DNA of 64,000 bases from assembly GCA_037043015.1 (NCBI GenBank), contig CM073330.1, forward strand, positions 12,542,512 to 12,606,511. Reading direction: 5' to 3'. Origin of the DNA: Bryum argenteum (Eukaryota > Streptophyta > Bryopsida > Bryales > Bryaceae). Made by a program: the position numbers and the translations under genes. The notes under the pieces were generated by a model. The model saw only the letters and a list, made by a program, of their open reading frames with translations, had not been told where the DNA came from and made no database searches. Within the stretch, counting starts at the first letter, position 1. Each line of letters opens with the position of its first letter. This document shows, piece by piece, positions 7,734 through 45,629 of the stretch.

Positions 7734-8438
7734 ATGACGCCTAGCCAGGAGCGGAAGATAGCGAGAGACAAGGACCGCAAGAGGAAAGGAAAGATGCAAA
7801 GGAGATTTCACAAGATTCTCATAGATCCCACGCTACAGGCTTTTCCGGGGTGGGCGCAAGTAGAGGAACCGTGGACCCTCAAGACTTGCAAGTGGTACAT
7901 TGCTTGGTGCCACATCGGCCATTTGTTTCCACACTATCGTCACGAGTTTCATCGCCGCCTGAATTGCGCAAATTTGCACTATTGCCATCACGATGAATTT
8001 GTGCAACGATGCATTGAAGTGTGGAAGTTCCTCTACGCCGGTGTGCATGTGGTGAGCAACGAGGTTTCGTACAACATAGCACAAATGGTGTACGCGGAGG
8101 TAATTTTGCAGAGGGACGTGGATTGGAGGACGTTTAAAAAATCCCCTCAAACAATTAAGCCACAAGAACCGCATATTCCACGAGCTCCTTACCCAACGGC
8201 CAACCCACGAGAAGGGCTTACAACACCTAGGGGTTACAAAGGAGGAATCCCTGATGAGGACATAGTTTGGTCAGATTCGGAAGAAGAAGGGACCGAAAGC
8301 CGAGAAGTGGATGAAGGGGAGCCAAACCAAACGATGGAGGAAGGTCAAGCACATTTTGATGAAGGGGGGCCAAGCCAAGTTTGTACAGAAGGGGGGCCAA
8401 GCCAAATTTACAATGAAGGGGGCCCAAGCGAAGAGTGA
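7734..8438 (+). CDS. Copy C of the unrecognised gene family, short intact ORF
   Basis: An intact 234-codon ORF from ATG 7734. The N-terminus is very basic (MTPSQERKIARDKDRKRK, a possible nuclear signal). It is followed by AFPGWAQVEEPW, KWYIAWCHIGHLFPHYRHE, HYCHHDEFVQRCIEVWKFLY and EVSYNIAQMVYAEVIL, then an acidic tail ending in three EGGPSQ/EGGPSE repeats. It lacks the coiled-coil tail of copies A and B, so it is either truncated by the repeat or a short form. The conserved C..H and HYCHHDEF...RC residues suggest a zinc-binding fold, but the family is not recognised. The upstream block at about 7502-7566 is conserved with copy B and may hold the promoter. Confidence 0.6.
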   Translation: MTPSQERKIARDKDRKRKGKMQRRFHKILIDPTLQAFPGWAQVEEPWTLKTCKWYIAWCHIGHLFPHYRHEFHRRLNCANLHYCHHDEFVQRCIEVWKFLYAGVHVVSNEVSYNIAQMVYAEVILQRDVDWRTFKKSPQTIKPQEPHIPRAPYPTANPREGLTTPRGYKGGIPDEDIVWSDSEEEGTESREVDEGEPNQTMEEGQAHFDEGGPSQVCTEGGPSQIYNEGGPSEE

Positions 8439-19683: not shown

Positions 19684-22600
19684 TTACGCTACAATTGCGT
19701 GCCAGTAAGTGCAAACACAGGAAGGAATTGCGTGCCAGTAAGTGGAATCACTGGAAGGTTCATAATTGTGTAGACGGGATTTTACCTTTGTCGCGGCATG
19801 GTCAGCAGTATCGAGACGATGCAATGGCCGTTCATTTTCCAATTCTCCATCACTTTCTATGTCAAGTAACTCGTCTTCACTTACGAATTGCTCGAATTCT
19901 TCCGGATCATCCAATCTGGGGGTCGGTAACTCCTCTTGATCCGAGTACAATTCTTCTGCTATAATTTCCGCTAGGACGTCATCGCTGTCGTCAACATCTT
20001 CCTCGACGCCTGCTCCTTCGCCTGCATCATCGTCTGCTTCAACTGAGAGTAACTCCAATTCAAGTCCCCCCCGAGGATATGGCTGTGCACCGCCTTCGGT
20101 ACTGACCTCTCCTGGTATGCTTAGCTGTTCAGATAATGGATTTAGGGTTTCATCTTCCTTTTCAAGGGCTTCTGCTTGTTGCCGCTTGTATACCACTAGA
20201 TTAGCTCGAGGTTTGACCTTCACTGCTAATTTCCAGCCTAGGTTTAAAGAATCATCGACATAAAATAGCTGGCTGACGTCCTTAGGAAAAATGAAAGGAT
20301 CGTCCTCGGCCGCTGATGCCCTAATAAAATCCCCTGCCTTAACAATATCAAACCCGCATTCATCTTCTAAAACCGTGGCATTGGAGCCATGCCGCCAGAT
20401 GATAGAGTCCCAAAATTGACACTTAAATAACACCGTTTCAAAGCTATCAAAATTCAACCTAACAATGTTTTCAATGTAGCCATAAAACTCTATTTTTTCT
20501 CCGCCGATGTCGTATACAACCGACACCCCACTATCAAATGTAGTTTTTTTGGCCAAATCCTAGCCATAATCCGATAATGACTTCCGTATGCCCAACACAT
20601 ACTATAGAAATGGCCCTTATCTCCTGGCCCAACAATTATATCTAAAATCATTTGTGACACTTCTTTCTTTTTAGATATGTCATATCTAACAGCTTCCTGG
20701 GCCCAATCTTTGAATGAAGGTTTTTGTAACTGATGTCCACATTCTAAGTCATATCTTTCTCTCCAAGGTTCAAGGCACGGAGCATTAAGTAACAAAAACC
20801 TATGCGCTTGTTCCCTAAAAATGGGATCCAATGGTTTCAGTGATGATAACTTTGGCAAGACTATCCCAGTGGAACGTACATCCTCCTCAGTTGATTTTTG
20901 AAGTCGCGTAGCAAATCTACCCAACCTTTGAGTATATTCATTCACAAAGAACATTGATTCAGCACAAATATACCCCTCTGCAATGGAACCCTCAGGTCGA
21001 GCACGCTGTCTAACAAAGTCTTTTAGTACTTTGAGGTACCGCTCAATGTGATACATCCACCGTATAGAAACCGGTCCCGCGAGTTCCACTTCTTTGACTA
21101 TATGCAATATATTGTGGACTTGTATGTCGAATATTGAAATAGGTAAGTGGATTTCCATTTCACATAGAATCTCTGCAGCCTCCTTCTTCATCATCGAACA
21201 CTCTGATACCTTAATCTCTTTGGAGCACACCCAACGGAAGAGGGCTGATAATCGGTACACGATGTTTCGAATACCTGGCGTAAGAGTACCCCGCACGGCA
21301 ATAGGCAGCAAATCATGAAGCAAATTATGGTAATCGTGGGTTTTGAATCCTACTAGCTTACGATTGTTGAACTTGTGGCAAAAACTTGAGCCGTAGCCAA
21401 AAGGAGTACAGGTTGATGATATCATTTGTATGATATTATCGTACTCCTCAGATTTCCAAATCCAATCGGCCGCTGCACATGTCCACTTCTGTACACCCTT
21501 ATCATCCACTCCATCTTCCATTGGGTGAAAGCGTCGTAAAACATTAAATTGTTGTAATGATCTTCGTAATGCAAGAGAATCAGACTTAGTCCCCTTGCAA
21601 TTCGAGAATGTCTTCAATAATGACGCTGATACGTTCTTCTCCGTATGCATAACATCTAGTAGATGTGGGAGTAGCAGGTGCTGGTAGAGGGACAAAACAA
21701 AGAAAATTTTCAAAAATTAACCCACTTAAACATAAAACAAAGTAATATATCCTTCATACTATATTATTGTATTAAATCATTGAATGTTGTTGTGAAATTT
21801 AAATGTTCCGTACCTCACTACAATTTGGAAAATCATGGCAAAAACAAACAAAGTATTTTTGAGTATAGTAATAGAAGGATAGTGAAGTTACTAAACTAGA
21901 ATCGAAGTTTATATAAATAACAATTTGAAAACATTACCCCTTTATCTGAACACGAATGATGATGACTACGTTGAATCGTAGTAAAATATGTACCGTTGCA
22001 TGTAAAATAAATGTACCCTTTTCATCAGCTCGTTAAAAATTCACTTATTCTATCTCTGTAGTCTTTAGGTCACGGCTATTGGTACCATATAAAATTATTT
22101 TCCAATCCTTATTACAAACTCAGTAATTTAATGATAGTTGGATCGAATTTCAGTATTACATTTCAGAGAACTAACTACAGGGATATTCCCTTTATATTGC
22201 ATATGTAATTGGGACTTCAAAAATAGCTTTTACTGAATATAAAGGTAATCGGACTTTTTGCTATCGTCGTTGTACTGACGTATGCACTGAACTCCTTAAT
22301 ACTCATGTATATGCGGTCATTGTATGGAGGACATTTGTAGATTTCAGTTTACCTTAGAATGTAGAATACTTACCTTATAATATGGAAGACGAAATAAGAT
22401 TGACTTCTCCTTCATGCCCGAGTCTTTTAGAAGTACTTCATTTTTTTGGACCTTCCTCCACTGTTTTAGCCAAAATGGACCCGTTGTTCTTTGCGGCTTA
22501 GGAACTTTAGTATATGATGTACCATCAAATTTGTTTTGGTTCCTCCTTGCCCTGTACCTGTGCTTCATTGGCAGGTATTTTCTATGCCCGATATAGACTA

Positions 22601-25115
22601 CCTTTTTCAGGTGCGTACAATATTTTGCCTCCAGCACATTCGGGCCACAAGGGGGGCAAGCCTTCAGTCCTTGCCTTTGTAATGATGAAAATACACCATA
22701 TCCTGGAAAGTCATGCAATGACCACAACATCATTGCATATAGTCTGAACGTTTGTCTTGTGTTAGCATCGTAGGCATTGACTCCATCCACCCATAGCTTG
22801 AGAAGCTCGTCTATCAAGGGTTCCATGTACGTGTTGAAGTTTTTTACTTTTCTTTTGCCTGCACAATGATAATGCTCAATTAGACATGTAGGAAGTTCTA
22901 TTTGGTTCTATTTATCACATTGTCAAAGTTAGTGTATACCCTTATAACGGATTGAATGCAACCTACCAAACCATTTGATCAAGGTTTAGTTCAACAAAAC
23001 TCACATAAACAATAATAATTCATGACATAGAATCCATTTTGACTTAAAAGAAATGTATATGCAAAATAAATTTATGATTATGCTTTAAATTGTAATGAAG
23101 CAAGGTATAAGATTAGGAGTCATACCTGGTACGATAGTAGACAGCAGAATGTGTCCTTTATGCATTCCAAGCTTAGGATTCAAATTCAGCAGAGTGCATG
23201 TTATTGGCCATAGTGAATGGCTTGCTGAATTCAAGCCCGCGGGATTTATACCATCCGTACTGATTTGTAGCATGACACTTCGAGCATCCTTCATATTGTC
23301 ATATTTCTCCTCCATAGCCTTCCAAGCAGGACTATCGGCTGGTATTCGCATAACATCATCCTGACTTCTATTATCACGATGCCAGACCATGCGTGGAGAC
23401 AGACTTGGGCTCTGATAATATGCAAGTAGGCGTAGAATTATCGGGAAGTACCACATTCTCTGAAATTGAACACCAGCAGTAATTAGCAACCTATCAATAT
23501 GCTCATTCTAGAAAATAGATTACTTGTTATGTTTAATCGGGCATCAAATGGACTTAGTACAGTACCCGAACGTAGCCCTTCAAAAATCCAGAAGTAGCAT
23601 TTGGTTTTTGTGATACTATGAAAATCATCACCGTATTCTCATTTCAGTAGGCTGTATATACCCTAAATTATATTAACCAAACTAAAAAGAAAAATTAAGA
23701 TTAACGAATATTGTAGCTCTGTAGGAGGTGAATAACAACTTTAATGGACATATCAGTTTAGAGAAATTTTTTTTCGTGCTTGATTCTTTATACAGTTAAA
23801 TTATTTGCGTAGGTGCAGATTTCTACATTTTGAAGGTAAATTTATGTTTTGACAACCTCATTTGTCCTTACTAAAAATGGACATGAAAAATGTAGAGTGT
23901 CACATACCTTCCGAGGAACCGTTTTGCTCTGTATTGTTTCACTATACCGGGAAAGTTTACATTTTGGGCAGGAATTCCAGTCCTTCTTAATAGGCCCGTA
24001 GTAAAGGGTTAAGTCACAAGGACATGCATGATAGACTTTATAATCAAATCCCACATCACTCACTATCTTCCTTGCTTCCGCTCTTGTCGTTGGCATTTTT
24101 GAATTAAGATTTGCAGGAATTACCTTTTCAGATATAGCTTTGAAAATGGCGTCCATTGCTACATTTGAAATCTGCTTGTCAGCTTGAATGCTTAGGAACA
24201 AAAAAATTATGGATAAACGACTACACGTTGCACCTTCAAAAATCATGGTAGAGGCTTCTTCTTCAAGAATGGATAGTTTAGCACCCATTTTTTCTGGTAA
24301 ATTCGTAGTCTCTCGAAAACCATCTTCATCATACCCACGAAGTAGCTCCATGTATTCATCTAGTACGAATTTTTCATCCCAATATATGTTATGGTCCTCC
24401 AATCCACCTTCTGATTCGTCGAATCCTCCTGTGCCTTCAAAACTGGAATCCACCCCGGTAGGGTCCACAAACAGCCTTTGTGCCTCATACAGTCCCTAGA
24501 AATATAAACAGTTAATGATGTACGTTGACTTCATTAGTAATTTCTTACTCAATGCAGCTTCCTTAAAATAAACGATCCATAGACAATTCTGAAGGCCCTA
24601 CAATCCAAGCATAACCAACCTTATCATTTTTTTGTCACGAAAATGAGGGTTAAATGAAAAGGAGGTTATCATTCTATTGAGATAATTTATACCTACCGAC
24701 CTAATCTTTAAGAATATATTCGGTAAGGTAATAAGGATATCCTAGGTATTAGAAAACGTAATTTCATATTATAATTTTAAAAGCATCGCTACTGTTACCA
24801 CTATAGGAAAGGTAATACAGGAATTACCTGGTACTTCTCGGAAATTTGATAAAGATGAATATGATTATCCACAATAGATAAAAATCTCATACTTGGCTTC
24901 TCAGCCTCGGCACATTTGCGACAAGGGCAATACACCTTGAACTCCGGTACGTCTCGTGCCTCCCGTGTAGCATGTACTTCCTCCCCTTTTCTTCTTTTTC
25001 TAGATGGTGTAATTGTAGGCGGTGGAGATAGGGGTATGTCCGGAACATATTCTGTAGCTGATGAAGAGCTAGGAGTAAATTGGGCAACGCTAACAACTTT
25101 GTGTCGGCGAGGCAT
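19684..25115 (-). pseudogene. CACTA transposase (TnpD/TNP2-like), multi-exon, one frameshift
   Basis: Catalyses cut-and-paste movement of the CACTA element. Exons: 25115-24828 (ending in a C.C..C zinc-like motif YCPCRKCAEAE, as in transposase-associated domains); 24495-23908 (CPCDLTLYYGPIKKDWNSCP); 23459-23126 (MRIPADSPAWKAMEEKY, ISTDGINPAGLNSASHSLWP); 22858-22375 (YMEPLIDELLKLWVDGVNAY, MLWSLHDFPGYG); 21680 onwards (LLPHLLDVMHTEKNVSASLL). These are the classic TNP2 landmarks in order. Near 20550 the frame shifts; the next frame encodes the DUF4216-like tail (EFYGYIENIVRLNFDSFETV, DVSQLFYVDD) and a long acidic end. The shift and the rest of the context suggest a recently inactivated copy. The start MPRRHKVVSV is well placed, facing the divergent TnpA-like gene. 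Confidence 0.88.
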
Positions 25116-29300: not shown

Positions 29301-29780
29301 TGTAGACCGGTATAGTACAGACATGTACTGTGAGGTAGATGTTAAATGTTGAGATTTATCAAGTTTGTACGCATTCCATATGACGACAGTAGAAATGCTT
29401 CGTATATCCATGCCGTTTTTGTGCTCTCATGTGCTGGGATGCGTTGATGTAGGAGGAAGAGTTCAAGCGTGTTCCTACGGAAGAGGAGGTTACGATAGGT
29501 AAACGAGATGGTATTAGAAGCCTATTTTCGATGTTACACAAGCGGTACATGGACAGAGCAGGGGGCGAGAACACTGGCTTGGCCATACAGCAGGCTGAAC
29601 CTTCAAAATCGCCCAAGGAACGACCGGTACGACGTGCCTCACAAGACACAGACGAGGACAGCGCGCGAACATCTTCAGACGAGGAAGACGAGGATCATAC
29701 ACGGCTTCATGAGAGATCAAGTGATTCAGATTCCTCGAAGTCGGTTACCAGCAAGGAAGACGGAGAGGGGGAAACCACCG

Positions 29781-29850
29781 GTGTGAGCGTTGAGCGGTGA
29801 GCGGTGAGCGGTGAGCGGTGAGCGGTGAGCGGTAAGGTTTGAGCGGTAAG
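29781..29850 (+). repeat. Left terminal heptamer array of the MULE
   Basis: GTGTGAGCGTT followed by six GAGCGGT heptamers, then AAGGTTT and one more GAGCGGT, then AAG and a poly-A run. Confidence 0.85.
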
Positions 29851-30598
29851 AAAAAAAAAATCTAAAAGTTAATGGCCCTATTACCATGGAATGGATGATT
29901 CAGAAATTTTAAAGTGGTTATTTTTAGGCAAAATAGTACCCAATACCGTGGACATAGGTCCTTCATCCATCCATTTTCATGGTATTGAGGTCATACATTA
30001 TTTTATAAATAATCCACACTTGCAATTTTAAATAAAAGTTAATTAATTTATGGGCTAACATCATTATGTGTAAGCAACACAATTCAAATCATATATTGGC
30101 TCCGTTCATTCAGAAATTCAAAACTTTAACCAAAACTTGGGAGGGCCCATTATGACAACTATAAAATCACTTTAATGATTTTAAAATTTAAATTAGAATT
30201 AGGGCTGACGTGTCACCTTGTAAGGTGTATAGAAAGACATTCACGTGGCATTCTAGTGGTCCGAGTTCGATTCTCCTCGGCCTCGTTTGAGCATTGCAAT
30301 GCGTCATAAAGCAGCTATCATGAGCTATAAAAATCCTGAACTAGAGCCTCTACCAATATTGGCTAGATTCAATCACTCCAATTCAAAATAAAGAACCATT
30401 TTGAAAATTTTAGTTTGCATTGAGTTTGAAACTTAAACATTCAGATATGAATTAAGAATGCGTTACACGTTCATGATTAATAGATAAACATTATATATAG
30501 AAATAAAAACGTATAATAAAACCACATGTACGACCAATGCCGTAGGGCAACTATATGTCCCTACGTAGTCCAAACCAAACCAAAAAAAAAAAAAACAC
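29851..30598. other. MULE left non-coding arm
   Basis: AT-rich. It includes a tRNA-like B-box sequence (GAGTTCGATTCTC, about 30260) without a foldable tRNA. Otherwise nothing recognised. Confidence 0.4.
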
Positions 30599-30842
30599 CT
30601 ACGATGCTGATGGTGAACGACCATTAAAGTGTTGGTCACACTGATCAGCCTCATCGTCTATAAACGCAAGCACTCTCGAGCTAAAGCGTCGACGTCTACT
30701 ACTGTTCGATATGACGGGAGAAGGGGCAGCGACAAATTCCTGAGCTATCCGCTCCACATAAGATGGCAGGGTGAAGGTTTGCGGAGGACTGCTGTACAGA
30801 CTACCGTCGCCAATCAAGAGTCGATTGGAACCTGCGATCCTA
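30599..30842 (-). other. Possible alternative terminal exon downstream of the ParB/methyltransferase gene
   Basis: After a good acceptor (CTGTACTTTTAG) an open frame reads AGSNRLLIGDGSLYSS through RRRRFSSRVLAFIDDEAD to a stop at 30599. Joining it to the last exon of the neighbouring gene through the donor GTGCGT at about 30928 would create a stop at once. It is therefore a separate remnant or an untranslated alternative end. Confidence 0.3.
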
Positions 30843-30919
30843 AAAGTACAGAAAAAGTCAATACCAATAAATTAGTAGCATGTGAAGGTGACAACAGAAG
30901 GGGGGAAAGTAAGAGATAA

Positions 30920-33900
30920 TTACGCACAAAATGTTGGGCGTTGCTTCTTCTGAAGCGGTTCAGAAGTGTCACTGTCGTAGTCATAATCAGGAACCGAATC
31001 GCCGCTTTCTTCCTCAAAAGCGGTACTATCCACGTAGGCCGATAGAAGTCCGTCGAATATCTCTTCATCAGCTTCAACAGCAATAAGATGACGGTTCGAC
31101 CGCGCACACGCAATCACGGAAGCACCTACATACCAAAAACCAACATCAGAACTACAATAATGAATAAGTTGAATGAGAGTTGGTTTAGCAACAACAAACC
31201 TGTACTAGGGCTCCAGTCAAAGACGATTCCCCGCTCGCATGTGAGAGAATCAATAAAACATTGGATGAAGGAGGGGTCCTTCTCTCGCGAGCCACGCCAC
31301 GGAGTACCATCTTCCTTCTTACGAATGGAATCATTGCTCGCAAAATTGAAAACATGGTCCTCCTCATCGGGAAGAATGGGCACACCCGCATACTCTTTCG
31401 CAACCTGTCTTATGGAGAATCTGGTGGCGAAAGACTTCCTAACGAAGACCTTAATGTGGAAGTTGTGAGTCTGCAAAATTCAATAGATGAGGAAGATTTT
31501 AAAAAAACGCTTTAAATAATCATGAATGATGATTTGAATGTAGTATGAAGACCATACCGTTTTCACGTGGGGGTTCGTCGAGGCCATTGGCATGGGATTA
31601 TATCCCCACCAATCTCGCACCATTCGGAATTCGAAAGCCTTTGACTCGGCATCGAGAGCTTTCTCGACTCGACGGTCCTTGGGATGCATAACAAGTATCG
31701 CACCCTCGTCTGTCAAGTTGTAGAAAGCAAAAAAGAAGACACTCTCGAAGTAGCTCTTCTCTCGCTTGTTCCACGAAGGAATCTCGACGGGCGACACGTC
31801 AGGCACGGGTAAGTTCTCAGGAACGTCCGCGTAGATGAGATCAATGCCCGGATGCGGGTGTTTCGTGCCCATCTCCTTACATGGATACTTCCTGTCCTTG
31901 CCAATCTTTGGAAATCACAGAAAGTTAGACATGTTATAAGCGATGTATTCCAATGAAAATATGAGTAAGAAAATAATGAAATAATAGATTTAAGACATTA
32001 TACCTTTTTGATGTGGTTGATGATGTCCATGACTTGTGTGTCCCATTCTTTTGTTTCATGAGCTGCCTTTTGGACAGAAGCTCCAATATCCCCTTTTTCC
32101 AAGTACATTGGAAGGGGAATAGTAATCTCAGAAGATGAGCACTGTCCAACATGCTTCGATTCAAGAAATGGGAGTGAGGCGAACTTCTTTCCGGAGTTGT
32201 GGTCAACTGTGAAAGATTGAGGAGGGGACCCAGCATTCGTAAGAGCGCCTGTAGAAATCTGAGTCAGTTGTCGACCGCGTCTAGCTACATTGTTCGTCGC
32301 TCCATGTGAAGCCTGAGTCAAATCAGCTTCAGCTGGATCTGCAACGTCTTCATCGAGCGGAGCGATGTCATCGGATGCTTGTTCAACATCAACTATAGGC
32401 TCCGCAGCACCGTTGCGTCGCTTTCTGTTTGCTCGGGTTCTGGGCTGTGCAACCGGTGAAGGTGGTTCGGATGGAGAGAGAGGTGCACTTGGTAAAATGG
32501 AGACGTCGTCGTCGTCATCGTCATCGATCTCCATAGGTGCATGGCTTGGTGCATTTGAACTGAGGTTCCGAAGGAGATGTCTCTCTTCCTTGTGCACGAA
32601 GTTATCGTTGCAATCAAGAAACCAACCACCGGTCAGCAATTGTGAGTTGGAGAACCGTTTCTGTTGGGCGTCGGAGAAGATGCTGGATGGATCATTTGAA
32701 ACGGTGACGTCCTCTAGTTCAGCAGAAATGGACCACGAAGCCAAGGCTCCTTTGCTAAGGAGCTCTCGTTTCAAGTACCTACAGCAAAGGAAACATATTA
32801 CAATGAGAGAATGTAGTATGCAAGATAGATTTTGGAACTCCGCATATTAAGTAGGAAATTGAGAATCTAAGTGAATACGTACCGAAATAAGAGCCGTTTA
32901 ATGGTAACCTTGCCACCACTAATCTTTTGAATATCGGATCCTTTTAAGAACTTCGGGGTGGCGGTTGGAGCAAGGTAGTTGCCAAAGGCATTTTCCCATA
33001 AAAGCAATCTCCATTTCTCAACGTACGCGGATGGCGTAAGTACAGCATCGGACCACTGAATGTGGATTTTGCCATCCTTGAGAAGTTGTTCTATTCCACT
33101 TTCAAGAGATTGTTGTAACTGCAACAAAGTTGAGCAAGTTTGAAAAAGTACAGCGTCAATGACGGGAGTGCAGTAATGACAGAAGTTAAGTACAATATAC
33201 CTGAGCCCAGAGAGAAGCGCGATGCAAAAATGCTTGCAACGTTTTATCCTTCATAGGGCGCTCTACGGGGAAGTGGACTGAGCGACGAACATCAGTTGGC
33301 GCATTCCACCATTGCAGCCACTTTCCCTTAAAATCGAAATGGACATTTGTGGTGGCAACCATGTGCAACCGTTCAATTGTCATATCAGGCTTCAGGTTGT
33401 GGCTGTAGTGAGAATAGATCTGCACATAGGACAAGTAAAAGTAGATAAGTTGAGTATTAATCAAGAACAGTATTGAGTATCCTTAGAAACTAAATAGACG
33501 GAATTATTTACCTCTTTCGGGAACACTTTGCCAAGTTGGTTATTGGCCACAGCAACCATCTTGTCAAATTGTTTGCCACGAATAGATTTGATTTCCGCTT
33601 TGATGGCGTTATCCATGGCACTCCAAACTCCTGGCCCCGTCTGCTTTTCTTTAGGGGTACTGGCGTAGTAATTAGCTTCGGCATTATCCGATGCTTTCGC
33701 TAACCGCCTCTACATGGCATAGAAGTAGTGGTAAGAAATTGTAGTGAAATGAGTACAAGATAGAACCGTTAGGTACGTGTTAAGAAATCTTACCGCATAT
33801 AAGAACTTGACGAAGACGTCCACCGTGACAGGATACCATGTTTCTTTTCTTACTTTAGCTTTTAAGCAAATTTGGTAATCCTCCGGAGTAATGAGGTCCT

Positions 33901-34896
33901 TGAAATCTTCAAGTTTCAACTTACCAAACTTTCGCATGCGTTGCAGCTTTGCACACAAACTATCTTCGACATAGTCATGTTCGGTAGACCTATATAACAG
34001 AAACAGATATGAGAGTACGTCAAGGTTCCAAAGAATTGAAATAAACTTAACAAATATAATGTTTCAAGTACTTACCAGTTGATGTCATTCATGGCGTCAA
34101 GAAGGAGATTGCTTTCACCGCGTGCATCGAGTACGATGCAATCAACTGAAATGTACCATGATGGATCCATCAGGTGGTACCTCTCAATGTGACGCATCCA
34201 CGCCGTCAGACGGTGGTTACCTTCATATACATAGAAGTATTTACCGCTGAGGTCATGCAGATCAGGATCCGACATCAAAGTCTTCTCGAACTCCTCATTT
34301 GCAGCTCTCCATAGCGAATTCTCCCACACACCATCTTCTGCACCAACTTTTTTATCTCTTCCTTTTCTATCGAATGGAGATACATACATGACTCGATCTC
34401 CTTCTCGGTAACCTTTATTGAACTCGTTTTCGAGTTTCCGGACATCTTGTTCGGAGATAGGTCGAACTTTTGGGTAAGACACCAAACGGCACAATGGAAT
34501 GAGCATACGTGACTTCTTAACAAGTTTGAAACGGAACCTGTTTATAATTGCAATAGAATCACTTTTGTGAATCATTCGCATTTCGTTGGCACTCCAGTCC
34601 GGGTCTTTGTTTTGAAGATGAGGAGGCATGTGAACTATGCCCACGTTCACACTTCCAGGCATAGGAGACTGTTCGTCATCTGAAGGGGACTCGTGTTCAT
34701 CGTCATCTTCCGCAGTTTCTGGAAGAGGTTCGGCTTGGATAGGACTATCGCTCGGAATTGCAGAAGACATGACTTGGACGTTCTCTTGTGCTTCGAGAAC
34801 GCTATTATCTCCATGAAGAACTGGAGCAGATGGGGAGTGTTGAGGAAGTACGGTAACTTCTTCGTCTTGAAGAGATAGTACGTCGGATATTCTCAT
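30920..34896 (-). CDS. ParB-like domain fused to a permuted DNA-methyltransferase-like domain
   Basis: Nine exons (34896-34076, 33989-33794, 33709-33512, 33419-33201, 33118-32883, 32778-32004, 31905-31558, 31470-31200, 31125-30920), all with GT-AG edges. They total 3,270 nt in perfect phase: 1,089 residues, no stop. Residues 1-100 are acidic. Residues about 130-260 resemble a ParB/sulfiredoxin-like domain: IPLCRLVSYPKVRPISEQDV, then FYVYEGNHRLTAWMRHI (EGNHR at 225-229). Residues 560-740 include an acidic and basic low-complexity linker (EIDDDDDDDV, RTRANRKRRNG). Residues about 816-1050 look like an amino-methyltransferase of the permuted type: IDLIYADVPENLPVPD at the motif IV position, LTDEGAILVMHP, then EKDPSFIQCFIDSL, GIVFDWSPSTGASVIACA (motif I) and HLIAVEADEEIF. 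Motif IV is DVPE instead of [DNS]PP[YFW], so activity is uncertain. Bacteria and phages often join ParB and methyltransferase domains; in a plant MULE this is unusual. Confidence 0.78.
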
Positions 34897-35037
34897 CTGA
34901 CAAATAAGAGAAAAAAATTCAAAGTCGAGAAAACCAAAATAATAAGAAATGAAATTAGTAATAAAATATGAAATTAAATATAAATCCGTTCATAGTGTAG
35001 AAAATTGTTGCAAGTATCAAATAGTGTTGTCATAAAA

Positions 35038-38000
35038 CTATATGGATTTCAACTTCGCTGCAAGGCGCGGAGAACGTCTGGGTGTATGCCTAGCTAATGC
35101 TCTCGCTTCAGTACGTCTAGCTTTGGCCTCATTTTTTTTAATTCTTATGTTCACTACTCGTGCAAACCGATCGAAATCATCACGTGAAGTGTGATTGACA
35201 GGTGAGGCAAGAGGCGGAGTCTCCGGAATCGAGGAGAATGGTATCACTAAACGCCGGGACTCTACATAAGCCAAGACATTCTTTCTCATAGCCGGGAAGT
35301 CGCTGTCGGCATCAGATTCCTCCTCTTTTGCGACTACGTTAACCTCTTTGGCGTCCTGCAGTACAACGTGGAACACTCAACATAAGTATGTACAGATATT
35401 CACATAAAATGAACAAAACTAATGAAAGATTATTATACATCACAACACATCGCCAAAAAAGCTAACAAGGTACCTGCAAAGCAAATCGGTAGTTGATATC
35501 CATTATATCTATGACATAAAAGAAAAGGTAACACTGAATTCAACTTCTGATACGTTTCACTAGTGAAGGGCCAGGCAAGGAAGTTCAGTCGAGAATAAGA
35601 ACAAGCCCGACATTGGCAAAATGGCGTCACCGCAATTACAGTAAAAAAATAAAACCAAAATCCAGAGATGCTATCCTCCTCGAATAACTCCACGAAGAGC
35701 CTTCTTAAGATGCCGACACCCTCCCATCAGTAGAGCAGGTTTTGTTCGAACCACACCATGAACAACGGGATCTCGAATGCAGGACTACAACGCGACACGA
35801 AAACGAGCGACGATGAAAAGTTGGAAAACACAAATTCAATCCTCTCTGACACGGTAAGGGGAATACGAAAGCATGACCACGACCACGACGGGGTGCACAG
35901 AGAACACCACGAACAAGGGGACCGAGACCACGAGTTTGAAGCAGAGGATTTTACCCTGTTAAGATGCCGACACCACGAACGAGGGGACCACAAATGCAGG
36001 ACCAAAAGTGACGGAACGAAAGTGACGCTGAGAAGTTTAAAAACAAATAATTTTCCCACGGAGGGCAAACCTGCGGTACCGCACGTTACCACCTCGGCGG
36101 CCCTGCTCCGATGCCGGCTCCCTCCCTTTCGGTGTGCAGGGCTGTGCTCGGTCAACACCGCGAACAAGGGACCACGAATGCAGCCAAACACCGGGCCTGG
36201 GTGCACAGACTACACCACGAACATGGGGACCACGACCACGAATGAAGGACCACGAACAAGGGGATCGCGACCAATATCAACAAAGTGGATTCAAAGTTCC
36301 AAAAAAAAGCATGCAATCATCCCACGCATACCAAACCTGCGGTACCGCAGGTTACCACCTCGGCGGCCCTGCTCGGATGCCGGCTCCCTCGCACCAACTG
36401 GAGCCCAGGACTGTGCATACAATGGGACTGGGACAGCAGCGAAAAATGGAAAGGGGGTGCACAGACATCACCACGCAGATGGGGACCACGACCCCGAATG
36501 CAGAATCGCGAACAATGGGACTACGAATGCAGGACCACGACCACGACGGTGTGCATAGACGACACCGCGAACAGTGGGACCTCAAATGCAGAGGACATTG
36601 CCCTGTTCTGATCCCGACTCACTCCCACAGCCAAAACCACGAACAAGGGGACCACGATTGCACGAATGCAGGACCAAGTTCAAAGTTCGAAAAAAAGCAT
36701 GCAATCATCCCACGCATACCAAACCTGCGGTACCGCAGGTTACCACCTCGGCGGCCCTGCTCCGATGCTGGCTCCCTCCCTTTCGGTGTGCGGTGTGCGC
36801 TCGGTCAACACCGCGAACAAGGGACCACGAATGCAGCCAAACACCGGGCCTGGGTGCACAGACTACACCACGAACAAGGGGACCACGACCACGAATGAAG
36901 GACCACGAACAAGGGGATCGCCACCAAGATCAACAAAGTGGATTCAAAGTTCGGAAAAAAGCATGCAATCATCCCACGCATACCAAACCTGCGGTACCGC
37001 AGGTTACCACCTCGGCGGCCCTGCTCCGATGCCGGCTCCCTCCCTTTCGGTGTGCAGGGCTGTGCTCGGTCATCACCGCGAACAAGGGACCACGAATGCA
37101 GCCAAACACCGGGCCTGGGTGCACAGACTACACCACGAACATGGGGACCACGACCACGAATGAAGGACCACGAACAAGGGGATCGCGACCAAGATCAACA
37201 AAGTGGATTCAAAGTTCCAAAAAAAACCAAGCAATCATCCCACGCATACCAAACCTGCGGTACCGCAGGTTACCACCTCGGCGGCCCTGCTCCGATGCCG
37301 GCTCCCTCCCTTTCGGTGTGCGGTGTGCTCGGTCAACACCGAAAACAAGGGACCACGAATGCAGCCAAACACCGGGCCTGGGTGCACAGACTACACCACG
37401 AACAAGGGGACCACGACCACGAATGAAGGACCACGAACAAGGGGATCGCCACCAAGATCAACAAAGTGGATTCAAAGTTCGGAAAAAAGCATGCAATCAT
37501 CCCACGCATACCAAACCTGCGGTACCGCAGGTTACCACCTCGGCGGCCCTGCTCGGATGCCGGCTCCCTCGCACCAACTGGAGCCCAGGACTGTGCATAC
37601 AATGGGACTGGGACAGCAGCGAAAAATGGAAAGGGGGTGCACAGACATCACCACGCAGATGGGGACCACGACCCCGAATGCAGAATCGCGAACAATGGGA
37701 CTACGAATGCAGGACCACGACCACGACGGTGTGCATAGACGACACCGCGAACAGTGGGACCTCAAATGCAGAGGACATTGCCCTGTTCTGATCCCGACTC
37801 ACTCCCACAGCCAAAACCACGAACAAGGGGACCACGATTGCACGAATGCAGGACCAAGTTCAAAGTTCGAAAAAAAGCATGCAATCATCCCACGCATACC
37901 AAACCTGCGGTACCGCAGGTTACCACCTCGGCGGCCCTGCTCCGATGCCGGCTCCCTCCCTTTCGGTGTGCAGGGCTGTGCTCGGTCATCACCGCGAACA

Positions 38001-38821
38001 AGGGACCACGAATGCAGCCAAACACCGGGCCTGGGTGCACAGACTACACCACGAACATGGGGACCACGACCACGAATGAAGGACCACGAACAAGGGGATC
38101 ACGACCAAGATCAACAAAGTGGATTCAAAGTTCCAAAAAAAACCAAGCAATCATCCCACGCATACCAAACCTGCGGTACCGCAGGTTACCACCTCGGCAG
38201 CCCTGCTCGGATGCCGGCTCCCTCGCACCAACTGGAGCCCAGGACTGTGCATACAATGGGACTGGGACAGCAGCGAAAAATGGAAAGGGGGTGCACAGAC
38301 ATCACCACGCAGATGGGGACCACGACCCCGAATGCAGAATCGCGAACAATGGGACTACGAATGCAGGACCACGACCACGACGGTGTGCATAGACAACACC
38401 ACGAACAATGGGACCTCAAATGCAGAGGATATTGCCCTGTTCTGATCCCGACTCACTCTGTGCACTCGAACAAGGACCTCGACTGCGGAACCATGACTGC
38501 GGCCAGAAAAAAAGTGACGATGAAAAGTTTGACAACCTAAATTTCAAAACTCACCTTCAAGCCGTTTCGTTTGAAGTAGAATTCTTCTAGTTCCGCGCGC
38601 GTTTTGATTGCCCCTTCTGGTTGAGTAGTATGAGACCTGTAATACTCCGCATAAAAGTCTGCAAACAAGCTGGACTCGGACGACACTGTACTCACATTCT
38701 GCATATCAAACTTTACGCTCGCTTCTTCTGGCTGAGTCGTCTCAACATCTTGTTCCTCCATCCCCGCCATTTCTCCCTCTCCTCGTGCAATCGCAGCGCC
38801 CTCCTCCAACCCTAACTGCAT
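35038..38821 (-). CDS. Small two-exon nuclear-type protein, MULE cargo gene 2
   Basis: Exon 1 is 38821-38555 (89 codons, start MQLGLEEGAAIARGEGEMAG); the donor is AAG/GTGAGT. Exon 2 is 35355-35038 after TGCAG, phase 0. The product is 194 residues. The first half is acidic (MEEQDVETTQPEEASVKFD, SLFADFYAEYYRSH). The second half is basic, with KNEAKARRTEARALARHTPR followed by RSPRLAAKLKSI at the C-terminus, a DNA-binding or nuclear-signal-like end. No domain is recognised. The single 3.2-kb intron holds the palindrome-bearing tandem array (36.0-38.5 kb). It is co-oriented with the ParB/methyltransferase gene, whose ATG lies 141 bp downstream of this stop. Confidence 0.55.
35990..38460. repeat. 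Tandem array with a 20-bp perfect palindrome in every unit
   Basis: Two unit types alternate: about 262-266 bp and 388 bp. Both share a segment ending CCCACGCATACC, then the palindrome AACCTGCGGTACCGCAGGTT, then ACCACCTCGGCGGCCCTGCTC. Palindromes begin at 36068 (one mismatch), 36334, 36722, 36986, 37252, 37514, 37902 and 38168. Intervals are 266, 388, 264, 266, 262, 388 and 266 bp. The units also carry many short ACCACGAACAAGGGGACC submotifs. Near-identity of units points to recent amplification. It sits in the intron of cargo gene 2; long plus-strand open frames here are a by-product of few stop triplets. Confidence 0.93.
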
Positions 38822-39945
38822 AGTTCATAAGCAAAGGGAAGCCTTCAAAGATCTTCGTTTACAACCTCAATGTTGACGTTCACTGATTTCCAATTGCTAA
38901 ACACAGCTACCACTCTGACACTGCTATCCTCCTATTGTCGACTCTGCTATTCCTACTCACTTTTCCAAATTTACACTCTGTCAAAGCTGCAACCTAGATT
39001 CCTCATCGCTGGCTTAGCTTAATCGCCTGTCAACCACGCTAAATTCGTTGGACTAAAGACAGAGCTAGGGTTTTGTTTTTCCTGCAGACCCGCCGGAGCA
39101 GCGACGCCGCGCAGGAGCGACGCCGAGCTCCAGCCTGCTGACCCCTTCTCTACGCACGACGTTGCTGTCCCCTTCTCTACGCACGACGTTGCTGTCGCCG
39201 ACCATCCTGCCTTCCCTTCCTGCGGCTCTCCCCCCTGCCGGCCATACCCGGCTCTCTAACCCCTGCCGGCCATACCCGGCTCTCCCCCCTGCCGGCCATA
39301 CCCGGCTCTCTAACCCCTGCCGGCCATACCCGGCTCTCTAACCCCTGCCGGCCATACCCGGCTCTCTAACCCCTGCCGGCCATACCCGGCTCTCTAACCC
39401 CTGCCGGCCATACCCGGCTCTCTAACCCCTGCCGGCCATACCCGGCGCCCATGCCGGCCATACCCGGCTCTCTCCCCTGCCGGCCATACCCGGCGCCCAT
39501 TCCCTCCCGGCCTTACCCGGATCGCAATCCCTGCCCGCCATACCCGGCCGATTACTGCCCGCTTCATGTACCGACCGGATACCCGGCCTGTCCACCCGAG
39601 CCCGATATTATGTCCATACGTGGCCCGTCTATCCTAGCACCTACCCGCCCCGTTCAACCCTGCCCTCACTCTTTACCTACCTGGCCTGCACCTACTCGGT
39701 TATTCCTACACTACATGCAACGTCATATTGGACTCCTAAATTGTTGAAGTATCAAAAGTACCAGAAGTACCAGAAATATAAACTTCAGTCCCGTAAATGA
39801 CAATCAAACAAATAAAAATATTTATTTTCTTTTATTTACGTTTTCCAAAAGCAAACAATGTTTCCACTTGAAAATCACTATGATATATATTACTTTCTCT
39901 TGAGTCTGCATCTATCATGAAACCATATGATGTCACAACTCAACA
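38822..39945. repeat. 28-bp minisatellite between cargo genes
   Basis: About eleven copies of a 28-bp unit with core TGCCGGCCATACCCGGCTC lie at about 39233-39497; later units decay. GCCGGC and CCGG make it locally palindromic. The rest of the interval is ordinary sequence, with the promoter of cargo gene 2 probably on its left side. Confidence 0.85.
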
Positions 39946-40719
39946 CTACATCGAACGGAAGAAAGGACTATCGTTGATTGTGTACTTAACCAACCCTAAG
40001 TCCTCCCAGTAAACCACGAAGTAGGGTTTCTCATGTACCTCCTCCTCTAATTCTTCAGTGGTACTGTATACTTCTTCCGCTTCATTATTTTGTGTTTCCT
40101 GATGTAAAGGGGCTTCCGCTGTCTCCGCCACATCAGTGACTCTTTTCTCCTCACACATTACTGCTTCATCTCCTGATCGTTCCTCTTCTTCTTCCAATCT
40201 TCTGCGATCCTGATAGCAACACATGCTCATATTAATCCATACTTGTATCCGGGATTAGTTTGACCTTTATGAATATCATCATTTTTGAAACATTTTCTAC
40301 TTCATTACCTCATGCGTAGAGTCCACACCTCCATCGTCATCCCCATCCGCGCAAACAGCCTGTCTAAACGTCCTGAATTGCCCTCTACACCCTTCATCCT
40401 CCTCTTCTTCAGCTTCGTCAGTCCCGACACTCTCCGGGACACTATCGAGGTTGAGCGACCGCATTTTGATCGTCCGTCTGAATGGCGGAAGCACATCATC
40501 GTCGATCAAGATATCGTACCCGTCTGGTTCCTGATCATCACCGCTAGAGCTTCTCCCATCGCGCTTCCTCATAGCACTACGTCTCTGTGCTTTAGAATTA
40601 GTGAACTTCGTACCACCCCTCCGCTTCTTCTTTCTCTGACCTATCTCCTTTCCTCTCTCACTACCGCTAGCGGTTTCGTCCATGCTGCTTGCAATGATAT
40701 AACTTTTCACACGTTCCAC
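39946..40719 (-). CDS. Small acidic two-exon protein, MULE cargo gene 1
   Basis: Exon 1 is 40719-40309 (or from the second ATG at 40683), exon 2 is 40209-39946. The GT-AG intron is phase 0, giving about 212-224 residues. The N-terminal part is basic (RGKEIGQRKKKRRGGTKF, a likely nuclear signal), then DGYDILIDDDVLPPFRRTIK. The rest is Glu/Asp-rich, ending KPYFVVYWEDLGLVKY and INDSPFFRSM. No family is recognised. It faces the transposase gene across 482 bp and is first of the three co-oriented minus-strand genes. Confidence 0.55.
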
Positions 40720-41201
40720 TATACTACTCCAAGTGTTCTCACTGCAAACGAAGAGGCTGAAATATGATTTTCATCTCCATTATATAAGTTCCCCTTTGCG
40801 GCTAAGAAACCCTAATCAGCCAACGCGTATTCCCTAACATCCCGCTCTCACCGTGTCTGACAATCCAAAATAAGCTTACTTCTGAACGCATCTATTATCC
40901 AACTAAATCTCTGACAATGACTGCCGCCGTCACTTTTCCTTCTCCACCTTCTTAATTTACGGACGAATCTCATATTTTTAATCGTCACTACTTAATGCAA
41001 TTCTGTCAAACCCAGTATTTTAAGTATTACAAGTACTCAGCTTTAAAATGATCTTCCCCACGATTAATAGTATCGAGTATATGTACGTTTTATTATAAGA
41101 AATTAGGTTTAATTAGTATTCAAAACGTATGGAAACACCCTACACCAATTTCTCGTATATGAACATTCGAAACGCATCTGAAACTCTCTTTCTCTGCGCA
41201 C
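40720..41201. promoter_or_regulatory. Divergent promoter region of the MULE
   Basis: Lies between the starts of the minus-strand cargo genes and the plus-strand transposase. A TATATAAG-like sequence at about 40779-40786 is seen. No other motif is claimed. Confidence 0.4.
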
Positions 41202-44200
41202 TTGTTGATGTTGTCTTCCTCGCCTTCGTCTATCATGGCATCATCCGCTCCCCTCCCTCCCGCTGCAGACGTCATTGTCATTAGGTCTGAAGGCTTAAGT
41301 CCCCCAATCTGCATTCCTCCGGGTGTGGATGGGGTGGCTGAAGTCACACCGTCTTGGCTAGCAATTCGTTTCGGGTTTGATGAGTCCTCTCTCTGGTTAG
41401 AGAAACATGTCTTAGATCCTAACTCTAATCTTGTCCATTACTCTGTCCTTGTCGAACCTATCGACCTAGAGAGTAATTGTAAAATGTATAAGCTACGGCC
41501 TGGACAGTATCGATTGTTCGGCTTGACAGAGTCCGTTATGAACGCCTCCACCGTCCTTCTCACTCCTCGTAGCTCTTCTACCATCTCCACAGTTGTCCTA
41601 GTTCTTGCTCGTGTCAAGGTCGAACCCGGACTCGAAGTCCGAATCGATATTTCTGATTCATCCGATGATGAAAGAAAAGTGTCCATCCAGTCCAATCGAC
41701 TATCATCGAATCTGCCTCCCCCGTCGTCTGGATTTGAATACAATCTCAGAACCACCCCCGTTTCTCTTCCCCCGTCCAAAGTTGTAAAACCCAAAAACAT
41801 TCTTCCCTCGCTCCGTAGACTAGGTAGTATGTCTCGCAACAAAACTATACTCAAAAAAATTGATTTCCATTCCATTCGTACTCAGAGTGTCTCTTTCCTG
41901 CCACCCACTTTCAATGGTGATGTCCTATACATTCTCCCCCCTGTTCTACCAACTACTGCTATCAAGGTAGCCAAATCTATGGAAGGGATGGACAAAAGAT
42001 ACGACGGCCATGTGTGGACTAGGACAATGACTACTAACATCAGTAACAACCTCGGTTTGTCTTTCCGCTACTCTAACTGTGTAGGGCATCTTCAATGCCA
42101 CAATGACAAGTGCGCCTTCCTGCTACGACCTGACCGCAGAGCACAACTGAATGAGGTGGAGTTCGAGGGGTTTACGAAGGACCCCTTCTCGGTCGGCCGC
42201 GCGCCTCCTCCTTCTTCAACACTGGTCTGTAAGATCTGCAAAGAACCTCCGGTTTGTGTTGCTCTATGCCCTTCTAAAATATTCTACGTATTCGGAGAGG
42301 AGAGTCAAGAGCGGGCGTGTGTACATATCGGTACCCACGAACATCCTGTCAAAGTCGGAGACTACAGATGTGCACGTAAAATAATTGATGAGTTAATAGA
42401 GGAGCACGTAGAACGTAACCCACAAGCTACCACGTCCAAAATAGTTATGGAGGCAAGCAAGGACTTACTCGGAAACTTACTTCTCCGTGAAGAAGGTGAC
42501 CCTGTTACCTCCAAGCTCACCCTCCAGGAGCTAGAACCTATATTCGATCAGTGTAAAGAGCTCAACTCTCCAAGCGTGAGGAATCGTATTACCACTTTTA
42601 AGCACTTGCGCAGATAGGGTGTTCTCGATGGGATCACCAAGCTTCGAGGCCTCAGCAACTGGGCTTACATCCAACGTAACCAGTTCCCGGGCCAAGGAGA
42701 TGAAAGTGACAAAGTTTTCATTTTCAAGATGTCTGAGGTCGGCCCCGGAAGCGGTGTTGACCTTGTTCGTCGTATGCAGCCCGGAGGCGACCTGTCTCAC
42801 GCGTGGTTGATGTTCGACCACGTCAAGCGTGTCAAGAACTGGACCACCATGGCGTGCCACGTTTATGACTCAAAAATCTGCCGCATTCTAACTATTGCAT
42901 GCTGTGATTTCCAGTCTGAAGACGGAGAAGCTCAAATCGTCTTCTGGAAGAACCTAAACCACGTCATGGGCAGAAACGGAGTGGAATCGCCACAGTTTCA
43001 AGGGTTCATGGCCGACAGTGCGCAAGCCAACTGGAACGCTGTGCGGATCATTTATGGCTCCGGAGACCCTAAAGTGCCCATGGAAGGCCGTGAGCGGACT
43101 TGCTACTTCCATTGGACGCAATCACTCGAGAAACACACCAAACAATACATCGTGCATGAGTTGCAGGATCAACATCGACATCTTTGTAAGCAATACAAAG
43201 ATGCACGCACCATGGCTGAGGCAGAGACAAGATATTGGGCGATCCGAGCATGGTGGGCGTCCGCGCAGGCCACCTCCGACGTTGGATTAGGTCACCTCGA
43301 ACACTGGCTTGCATTCTGGCACTTCCGATACAGGCAGTGGGGTGGCTTCATGGAATTGGTGAGTCGACAGTCGCTGTAGCAATTTTGTACACGTGCATGT
43401 ATGTCTACTTACTCTGAAAAATTCATTTACTTTTTTAGTACAGAATATTCCGCTTTTTTATTTTTTCCAGTAACCATTATTTTATTTTTAAACTGAAAAA
43501 AATTTCTATTTTTAGATCAGACCTGCGGTACAGCAAGTCTAACCCACTCCAGATATCGTGATCAACTTCTTTTGTTACTGAGTCAAAATTCTTTGCACCA
43601 TACAGGAAAATAAATATTCTGCGGAGGAGCTGGCGGAGATGCCTTCATGTAACCTTGCGGAATCTATCCATAACAAGTGGTTGCAAGCGTCCGGCAACAA
43701 GGGTGGGGACTTGTACGTTGCAGCTGTTGATGATTATGTTCGTGCTTTCCTCCAAGTTGTAGGTTACCATGACTTCAACGGAGGTGGTAAGGGTGGTAAT
43801 GGACCAACATCCGAAGAACTATTACTTCGTGTTGCCCATAAAGCTCAACGAACCGGCGATCCATCAGGCCTCACAAAGGCAGTTTCTGACTATCCAGGAG
43901 CGGAAAATATTTGTACCCGCGACGCCCACCTTGAGGGGTCCGAGGTGTTCGGATCGAAAAAACGTAAGGCTGATGTTCCAATTGGAGCTGATGATGAAAC
44001 ACACAGACCTGACATCGTGAGCTACTCACGTCCCCGAATAGGGAGAAGGGTTACCCGAGCCTGTGCAGAAAATCTGTCAACTATCCATGAAGTGGACGAA
44101 GTTGAGGAGCAACCGACATTACCATCCACTTTTGCTGGACCTAGTATTGAACGTGTGACCGCTGTTCAGGAGACTAAAGTGGACGAGAGGTTGTGGCACA

Positions 44201-45045
44201 TTGCCCGTTTGAGGGAGAATTCCTCCAAGGCTTGTTGGGGTATCATGCGAAAGAGTAAAAAAAGATGCGACTCACGAATTATTCAGAAGGGGAAGGCGAC
44301 CGCAGCTCCAACTTACACCGGAGTATGGCAACGGCCTCAAGAGGGGCCACGAAAAATAGATCAGTTCTTTTTTTGTGCGGATGATATTGATAGGTGTGTG
44401 AAGGGTCATCGTCGCAAGTGGATTGAGCCATTCTCTCCAAGCCATGATAGACCCCCTATTCCTTCAATATGGCCTGTTAAGATAGGCACTAACCTTACAC
44501 GTGATGAGATGGAGGCGTTAGAAAATGCGGGCTTCCGACTACCACAGAAAGAACAGCTTCCTACAAACCGCACATTCAATAACGCTGCCCCACCCAGAGA
44601 CTTGTCCCATATTCCAGTCCCGGAGAAGCCGGACGTGTTCCCTAGGTCAAGAAGATCGAAGAACATGAAACGCATTCCCGCTATGACTTCAAAGCACATG
44701 AAGAATATTGAGTCTGCCACGTCAATGCAGGCCAAAATTCTGAGGGTGACCATGATCCCGCAGCCTGGTTTTGGGTGTATCGTAGACTTGGAGTCGGATT
44801 CAGATGCAGTTTATAGACTTTCAATTAGTAAATTCCCGGATTGCTCATGTCCAGTGTTCAAGAAAACAATTTCATCGTTAGGACGGAGAGATCCATATCG
44901 ACCGTGCAAGCACCTATACTTCATCACGGTATTGGTTTGCAAATTTGATCCGGATGCTGATCTCTTCATCCACGCGGCCACTCTTAGTTTCAACGAGGTG
45001 AAGAAGATTCTGGAGGGAGGAATCCTAGACCATGCTACAGATTAG
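41202..45045 (+). pseudogene. MULE-type transposase with WRKY-GCM1-like zinc finger and SWIM finger; one in-frame TAG
   Basis: Catalyses MULE transposition. Exon 1 is 41202-43358, the intron has GTGAGT...CAG edges, exon 2 is 43606-45045, phase 0, about 1,198 residues with a single internal TAG at 42615-42617. Start may be 41202 or the ATG at 41235. Order: low-complexity N-terminus; WTRTMTTNISNNLGLSFRYS and CVGHLQCHNDKCAF with HIGTHEHP (WRKY-GCM1/FLYWCH-like zinc finger); DDE core with ACCDFQSEDGEAQIVFW, FMADSAQANW (Asp), CYFHWTQSL (the C..H of MULEs) and NLAESIHNKW (Glu); C-terminal SWIM finger CSCPVFKK...PCKHLYF (about 44835-44925). The reading frame is otherwise clean, so the TAG is probably a recent mutation. 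Confidence 0.82.
43518..43541. repeat. Degenerate copy of the array palindrome in the transposase intron
   Basis: ACCTGCGGTACAGCAAGT at 43521-43538 matches the inner 18 bp of the array palindrome at 16 positions. Confidence 0.7.
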
Positions 45046-45461
45046 AATGCCTTATATCTCCTCATCTACGTACGCTATATGTTAGTCTTATGATTGGGTG
45101 CTCCACACTATATGTGATATTTTTTCACAACTTATCAAAAATTATTATACCAGTACCTACATGTACAGCAGACCTTGCCAATTTGTCTAACTCGGAGTAC
45201 TATTCACTTAGAAATATTACCTTAGAAACCTCTTGACATTTAAAAATTTGTGATTTACTGTAGAGTTTTGTAGCTCAAGTCTCACAAATTCAGTGAATTT
45301 AAGCCTTATTTCCACGGGTTTGGGTCACTAAATCCACGGTTATAAGTCTAGAATATTCGAATATTCTTGAGAATATTCGAAATTTATTCTCATTTTTTTA
45401 AAAACTATTTTTAGAAATATTTTTACTAAAAATACAAAATCAGCCCTAAAAATTCTAAATC

Positions 45462-45502
45462 TTACCGCTCACCGCTCACCGCTCACCGCTCAACGCTCAC
45501 AC
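45462..45502 (-). repeat. Right terminal heptamer array of the MULE
   Basis: Inverted counterpart of the left end: CTTACCGCTCACCGCTCACC, then two more heptamers including the variant CAACGCTCACAC. It has fewer heptamers than the left end, so copy number has changed since insertion. Confidence 0.85.
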
Positions 45503-45629
45503 GGTAGCAACGTCCGACGGAGAGGAGGCCAGCGCGCAATTCCAGGGGTGCGGATCGGAGCTCAAAGAAACTCAGAGAGCGGACGTCGGGTCTTCATCTG
45601 AGGACGGTAGTGCAGACGATCGGGACTGA

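Follow-up and report, generated by a model that had tools for sequence, protein, structure and literature searches.

Why would a transposon of a moss carry a gene whose product joins a ParB-like part to a methyltransferase-like part, protein parts that are best known from bacteria and phages? This question is raised by a stretch of 64,000 nucleotides of Bryum argenteum (C10:12542512-12606511 of the 258.8-Mb genome; hereafter the window), in which a preliminary description, made from the letters alone, had proposed such a fusion gene within a Mutator-like element (MULE). Comparison with copies elsewhere in the genome and with database proteins indicates that the fusion gene belongs regularly to a Mutator-like transposon family and moves with it, and is not a passenger.

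The element and its copies

The gene lies in an element whose ends were set by comparison of copies:

29768..45515, no strand: whole element, ~15.75 kb; left end GGGGAAACCACCGGTGTGAGCG (gene side), right end GGACGTTGCTACCGTGTGAGCG (read inward, transposase side)
29759..29768, no strand: left copy of the 10-bp target-site duplication, GACGGAGAGG; the final G is possibly the element's own
45516..45525, no strand: right copy of the 10-bp target-site duplication, a perfect repeat of the left copy
29781..29851, plus strand: left (GAGCGGT)n subterminal repeats, matching the right end in inverted orientation over 42 bp (97.6%)
45457..45502, minus strand: right (GAGCGGT)n subterminal repeats, with the 42-bp inverted match to the left end

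Both ends and the perfect duplication bear out the earlier suggestion that the gene is housed by a large, transposase-bearing element. The insertion splits a reading frame (29453-29767 and 45525-45629) that can be followed over the empty site as far as its stop. The end motifs GGGGAAACCACCGGTGTGAGCG and GGACGTTGCTACCGTGTGAGCG were counted 164 and 204 times genome-wide, and the terminal repeat 20-mers have 441 and 400 exact matches (overlaps counted); reversed-pattern controls gave 0 in both searches. Placing the ends at the 42-bp repeat was rejected, as no duplication is found there and the true ends are 13 bp further out.

The same arrangement recurs on C1: a transposase-side end lies opposite 25 of the 57 gene-side ends, at a distance of up to 25 kb, and never next to one in the same orientation. 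Among the 64 ParB exons of C1, the gene-side end was in place for 20, the other end for 19 and both for 12, compared with means of 0.19, 1.10 and 0.08 (maxima 2, 6 and 2) in 1,000 shifted controls and counts of 0, 2 and 0 in flipped-strand controls. The 12 bracketed elements are a lower bound, counted from exact ends on C1, which was listed completely. Target-site duplications in the Mutator superfamily are about 9 bp long (range 8-11). In agreement with this, the window duplication has 10 bp, and 9-bp duplications, with one mismatch tolerated and positions free to shift by as many as 3 bases, were found in 10/10 C1 elements, the first ten of the twelve, against 1/90 mismatched pairs. Exact repeats of at least 10 bp flank seven of these ten.

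The ParB exon has at least 141 matches in the genome, each with E ≤6e-121 (141 of 1,235 first-look candidates scored), and the matches other than the window's own exon are 67-94% identical. Going down this match list, 20 copies were selected manually at approximately regular intervals. The full ordered set of ten exons is present in 13 of them, including L020, which has a 3-kb gap; L017, L025, L026, L027, L031 and L034 are without one or more exons, and in L032 exons are out of place.

Structure of the fusion gene

The predicted gene lies on the minus strand and has ten exons (34896 to 30599) encoding 1,168 amino acids:

34076..34896, minus strand: exon 1, acidic N-terminus and ParB/sulfiredoxin-like domain (model residues ~125-273; EGNHRLTAW at 225)
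33794..33989, minus strand: exon 2, based on joined frame, copy comparison and splice-site conservation
33512..33709, minus strand: exon 3, based on joined frame, Ceratodon alignment, copies and splice sites
33201..33419, minus strand: exon 4, same basis as exon 3
32883..33118, minus strand: exon 5, same basis as exon 3
32004..32778, minus strand: exon 6, linker under weak constraint (ratio of nonsynonymous to synonymous substitution rates, dN/dS, ~0.30)
31558..31905, minus strand: exon 7, motif IV region (IYADVPEN) of the methyltransferase-like domain
31200..31470, minus strand: exon 8, motif X and the first part of motif I (FDWSPSTG) of the methyltransferase-like domain
30924..31125, minus strand: exon 9, final part of the motif I region (ASVIACARSNRHLIAVEAD)
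30599..30839, minus strand: exon 10, C-terminal tail common to Ceratodon, absent from the earlier nine-exon model

Nine exons with 1,089 codons and no stop had been described before. The frame and the GT-AG introns of 74-104 nt held up, and 2,000 base shuffles of the joined nine-exon sequence contained a mean of 56 stops (minimum 35), compared with none observed. The gene end did not: the stop at 30920 follows a donor at 30924, from which a tenth exon (30839-30599) extends the protein to its full length, and the tail encoded there aligns with the C-terminal end of a Ceratodon protein. The introns have a guanine-cytosine content of 31%.

Residues 371-1165 of the fusion protein align with residues 1-801 of an 803-amino-acid protein of Ceratodon purpureus (48%), and two more Ceratodon proteins from other contigs also match. 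All three models start inside exon 3 and hence cover the protein from exon 3 onwards; the ParB part is present in a separate Ceratodon fragment (P0020). The region of exons 1-3 has 68 database protein matches (E 1.3e-83 to 2.1e-20). Of the 68 proteins matching exon 1, 50 terminate exactly at (I/V)NW, where read-through of the intron at the conserved GTAA donor would give a stop. Across 14 of the 20 fetched copies, GT was conserved at 122/125 and AG at 123/125 splice sites; L017, L020, L027, L031, L032 and L034, incomplete or with inserts, had been dropped beforehand. The Ceratodon proteins, the (I/V)NW ends and the conserved splice sites thus support the exon model independently, and it is predicted that the ParB and methyltransferase parts form one spliced fusion gene.

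The two domains

The predicted structure of the exon 1 product folds as a ParB/sulfiredoxin domain in structure comparison (Foldseek), which agrees with the earlier reading of the EGNHRLTAW region; on this model the N-terminal domain is assigned the ParB/sulfiredoxin fold. The sequence GNHR, present in 61/68 exon-1 homologs, stands where ParB proteins have their usual motif. The catalytic cysteine motif of sulfiredoxin is GGCHR, and these 61 homologs have asparagine in place of the cysteine. A Pfam scan of 69 members of the exon-1 family matched no family named ParB, and DUF6551 was weak in five.

For the C-terminal domain, the part spanning motifs X and I matched beta-class amino-methyltransferases with an hhalign value of 94.3%, compared with at most 1.5% in 60 column shuffles. 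The proposal that GIVFDWSPSTG...VEAD corresponds to motif I of a permuted amino-methyltransferase therefore stands as one of relationship, and by this profile comparison the domain is related to the beta class. The motifs follow the order IV, then X and I, as in these permuted enzymes. The motif IV half alone was not significant (hhalign 2%), and its register was thus inferred from order and spacing. The Pfam score of the domain falls below the gathering score, and NCBIfam gave nothing above cut-offs. Pattern scans by tblastn, whose reach is close relatives, revealed no relative in viral contigs (methyltransferase and ParB parts) or prokaryote genomes (ParB part). Weak tblastn matches exist to 287 phage records (E up to 10), with a methylase annotation on 19 of the 20 that were listed, and to 30 plasmid records (E up to 1).

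The catalytic motifs are altered. Motif IV, readable in 16 copies, has Glu (14 copies) or Lys (two) as its fourth residue and never an aromatic one, so that the canonical (D/N/S)PP(Y/F/W) occurs in 0/16; a complete D[VIA]PE is present in 11, the Asp is kept in 15 and the second Pro in 14. Wherever motif I is readable (16 copies), the first glycine of the S-adenosylmethionine motif FxGxG is lost (13 of the FDWS type, two with a stop and one FDSS). Motif I keeps its last Gly in the window protein and in 3/3 Ceratodon proteins; the codon of this Gly is split, so the copies give no reading. Matching alterations of both motifs are found in the three Ceratodon proteins. Among seven aligned phage enzymes, five have DLPY or DIPY, i.e. 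the first Pro is variable there. With the motif IV aromatic residue and the first FxGxG glycine gone, the suggestion that the protein modifies DNA is not upheld. A diverged methyltransferase-like stretch was also seen in L082 (C4:20498341) and L083 (C7:9878472), with DLTASTGAS replacing FDWSPSTGAS (43% identity over 65 residues).

Selection on the gene

Median dN/dS values were calculated by the Nei-Gojobori method against ten close and six distant copies (four of the 20 left out). Against the close copies they were 0.07 for ParB, 0.15 for exons 2-5, 0.30 for the linker, 0.04 for the methyltransferase domain and 0.39 for the C-terminal tail (nine copies); against the six distant copies, for which dS was computable, they were 0.05, 0.06, 0.26, 0.08 and 0.27, respectively, and since some copies contain stops, all these values describe the lineage rather than single copies. 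Eleven pieces of transposase exon 2 gave 0.10-0.30 in eight cases and 0.00, 0.34 and 0.49 in three. The comparison among copies that had been called for thus gave ratios well below 1 in both domains, which shows the ParB-like and methyltransferase-like domains to be both under purifying selection.

Transposase and accessory genes

The other genes of the element are as follows:

41208..43358, plus strand: transposase exon 1, interrupted in frame by a single TAG (42615-42617)
43606..45042, plus strand: transposase exon 2, ending in a SWIM-like CxC..CxH motif found by eye
35038..35360, minus strand: second exon of accessory gene 'small2', recurring in the C4 copy (86%)
~38824-38540, minus strand: first exon of 'small2', recurring in the C4 copy (73%)
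39946..40770, minus strand: open reading frames (ORFs) of accessory gene 'small1', which the C4 copy also has (77%)

The transposase had been described as broken; it consists of two exons with a single in-frame TAG and is less damaged than claimed. The hallmark of Mutator transposases is a DDE/D catalytic core with CxxH and a SWIM zinc finger, and motifs resembling these were noticed by eye in 41208-45042. Pfam, including the MULE profile PF10551, did not match the three transposase fragments or their read-through, and hhalign of the single transposase sequence with five PF10551 proteins of the genome gave 0.2%, within shuffles. The label is thus backed by the target-site duplications and the layout but not by a profile match of the transposase. 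We therefore call the element Mutator-like, a putative MULE.

Four upstream regions were fetched (L036-L039). The C4 copy (L036) has the layout of the window, with transposase exon 2 (96%), the two small genes (73-86%) and then the fusion gene; residues 212-678 of its transposase are unmatched. L038 has a diverged version, L039 has transposase parts in a different orientation and L037 has one small gene only. At the transposase-side end of four C1 elements (L075, L076, L077 and L078), a 153-residue ORF was found, which in L075 matches the ADD domain of ATRX (PDB 2lbm, E 9.6e-16). In L080, whose DNA is 97% like that of L076, this ORF is not among the three longest. The match points to a histone-reader domain within the element family.

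Palindromes upstream of the gene

36334..38187, no strand: 20-bp palindrome AACCTGCGGTACCGCAGGTT in seven copies (36334, 36722, 36986, 37252, 37514, 37902, 38168), within tandem repeats upstream of the fusion gene

This palindrome occurs 15 times in the whole genome (seven in the window, six on C6 and two on C3), and downstream of every site, 1.2-4.9 kb away, lies a ParB exon. The copies that carry it on C6 and C3 are 89-90% identical to the one in the window. When up to two mismatches were allowed, a 14-bp core was found at 39 sites in four elements, including that on C4. The 20-bp stretch is conserved at 96% on average compared with 65-68% for the flanks (38 sites with full flanks), a figure that only the outer bases test independently, as the sites were chosen by the core. 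Spacing of the sites varies from element to element. The 20 gene-side regions contained no core, but they reach only ~200 bp upstream and are uninformative. By analogy, a repeated palindrome near the gene recalls parS of ParB systems. The arrangement is also like that described for VANC targets (PMC5735166) and suggests a candidate self-recognition site. Another palindrome, AGAATATTCGAATATTCT, is common to 45350-45367 and L036:1680-1697, near the transposase-side end.

Surroundings of the element

To the left of the element, 20493-24495 (minus strand) holds CACTA-like transposase remains recognized by eye, with DUF4218 in 20493-21716 (E 4.6e-30). A CACTA element as the carrier of the gene was rejected, since this sequence falls outside the element ends. 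The stretches 3073-3445 and 7776-8150 are related in the same orientation (71% identity), and an ORF at 16613-17092 (plus strand) resembles a SET domain by eye.

Possible role of the fusion protein

We consider the description nearly certain as far as it comprises the element, the same placement of the gene, the ParB fold, the methyltransferase relationship, purifying selection and altered motifs. The best explanation as a whole, to which we assign a probability of about 0.5, is a DNA-binding factor which the element encodes for itself and which probably does not methylate but may act against silencing in the manner of VANC. The fusion protein would bind the element's own DNA via its ParB-like domain, and the methyltransferase-like domain would be retained for DNA or cofactor binding, not for methyl transfer; of such putative binding without methylation we are slightly more confident than not. 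Bound to repeated sites in the non-coding DNA, the protein might keep the element expressed, as VANC does for VANDAL MULEs, or it might help to assemble the transposition complex. Anti-silencing in particular is a tentative proposal, indirectly favoured by the element-specific palindrome arrays. It is quite improbable that the parallel goes as far as a ParB-parS-like system, in which the protein would load on these arrays, spread and shield the element from silencing while a retired methyltransferase domain reads DNA or its modification state.

Several observations weigh against the binding-factor explanation. The exon-1 model had no Foldseek match at E 0.001 or better, and the exon-1 profile had no match to PDB sequences. 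For the methyltransferase profile, the best match to PDB sequences was a dynein light chain (E 0.031, residues 14-60), ahead of an N4 methyltransferase (E 0.061) and 5hfj (0.32). The ParB fold was recognised by structure and the methyltransferase by profile; the model of the methyltransferase domain was too poor (pLDDT 31.5) for a structure search. Against distant copies, this domain was no more constrained (0.08) than the ParB domain (0.05), and degenerate motifs can retain unexpected chemistry. Transposase sequence was found in five of ten C1 elements and was not seen in the other five within the 2.2 kb searched from the transposase-side end. The exact AACCTGCGGTACCGCAGGTT is confined to three elements and its core extends to a fourth (C4); the core is missing from L037-L039 (0/3), so that the palindrome cannot be a family-wide site, and it also multiplies via tandem duplication.

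An active DNA amino-methyltransferase, which would mark or protect element DNA by N6-methyladenine or N4-methylcytosine (4mC), would fit the relation to beta-class enzymes, the low dN/dS of the domain, the conserved Asp and second Pro of motif IV, the retained last Gly of motif I and the variable first Pro of the phage enzymes. We consider it unlikely given the replacement of the motif IV aromatic residue by Glu or Lys and the universal loss of the first FxGxG glycine. In the rotifer enzyme N4CMT, changing SPPY to APPA (two residues) is reported to abolish activity (PMC8885841). Somewhat unlikely is also a cofactor role in transposition, in which the protein would bind element ends, for instance at (GAGCGGT)n, as a subunit acting together with the transposase: copies of the terminal repeat are numerous genome-wide, and gene and transposase sequence occur together in the window, the C4 copy and half of the C1 elements examined, but no direct link between fusion protein and element ends was found, and the transposase carries zinc-finger-like and SWIM-like regions (by eye) of its own. 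A captured passenger kept by hitchhiking alone is already disfavoured and very improbable, although MULEs are reported to be prone to picking up host gene fragments (PMC6446971), and several copies contain stops; dN/dS is far below 1 in both domains, the gene has an identical place and orientation in bracketed elements, and homologs exist in Ceratodon.

Comparison with known systems

The N-terminal domain shares its fold with the ParB, Noc and KorB partition and occlusion proteins; the likeness observed is one of fold, any CTP binding, spreading or helix-turn-helix domain in the moss protein would be putative, and GNHR replaces the usual ParB motif. Beta-class DNA amino-methyltransferases (Helicobacter pylori 5hfj and phage enzymes) have the same motif order and are significantly matched by the C-terminal profile, whereas the moss protein mostly has D[VIA]PE for DPPY and S-T-G for G-x-G.

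The anti-silencing protein VANC of Arabidopsis VANDAL MULEs is described with DUF1985 and DUF287 domains (PMC5735166). The likeness lies in the pairing of a transposase with an accessory gene in an element of Mutator type, and in short repeated non-coding motifs that differ between related elements; on the other hand, ParB or methyltransferase-like folds do not figure in VANC as described there, and anti-silencing by the moss protein is putative. The bdelloid rotifer N4CMT is likewise a bacterial-type amino-methyltransferase domain in a eukaryote, which retains SPPY, is joined to a chromodomain and places 4mC on transposons (PMC8885841); in the moss the transposon itself carries the gene. Our literature search, which lay mostly outside subscription journals, found no transposon with both ParB and methyltransferase. 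Accessory genes are known for Mutator-like elements; within the literature searched, a ParB and amino-methyltransferase-like fusion was not among them.

If the explanation is true, a bacterial-type DNA-binding architecture would join the means by which transposons maintain themselves in plants. The 20-bp palindrome and the end repeats would then be concrete candidate sites for binding. The protein is also an example of a methyltransferase-like domain kept by selection after losing its canonical catalytic residues.
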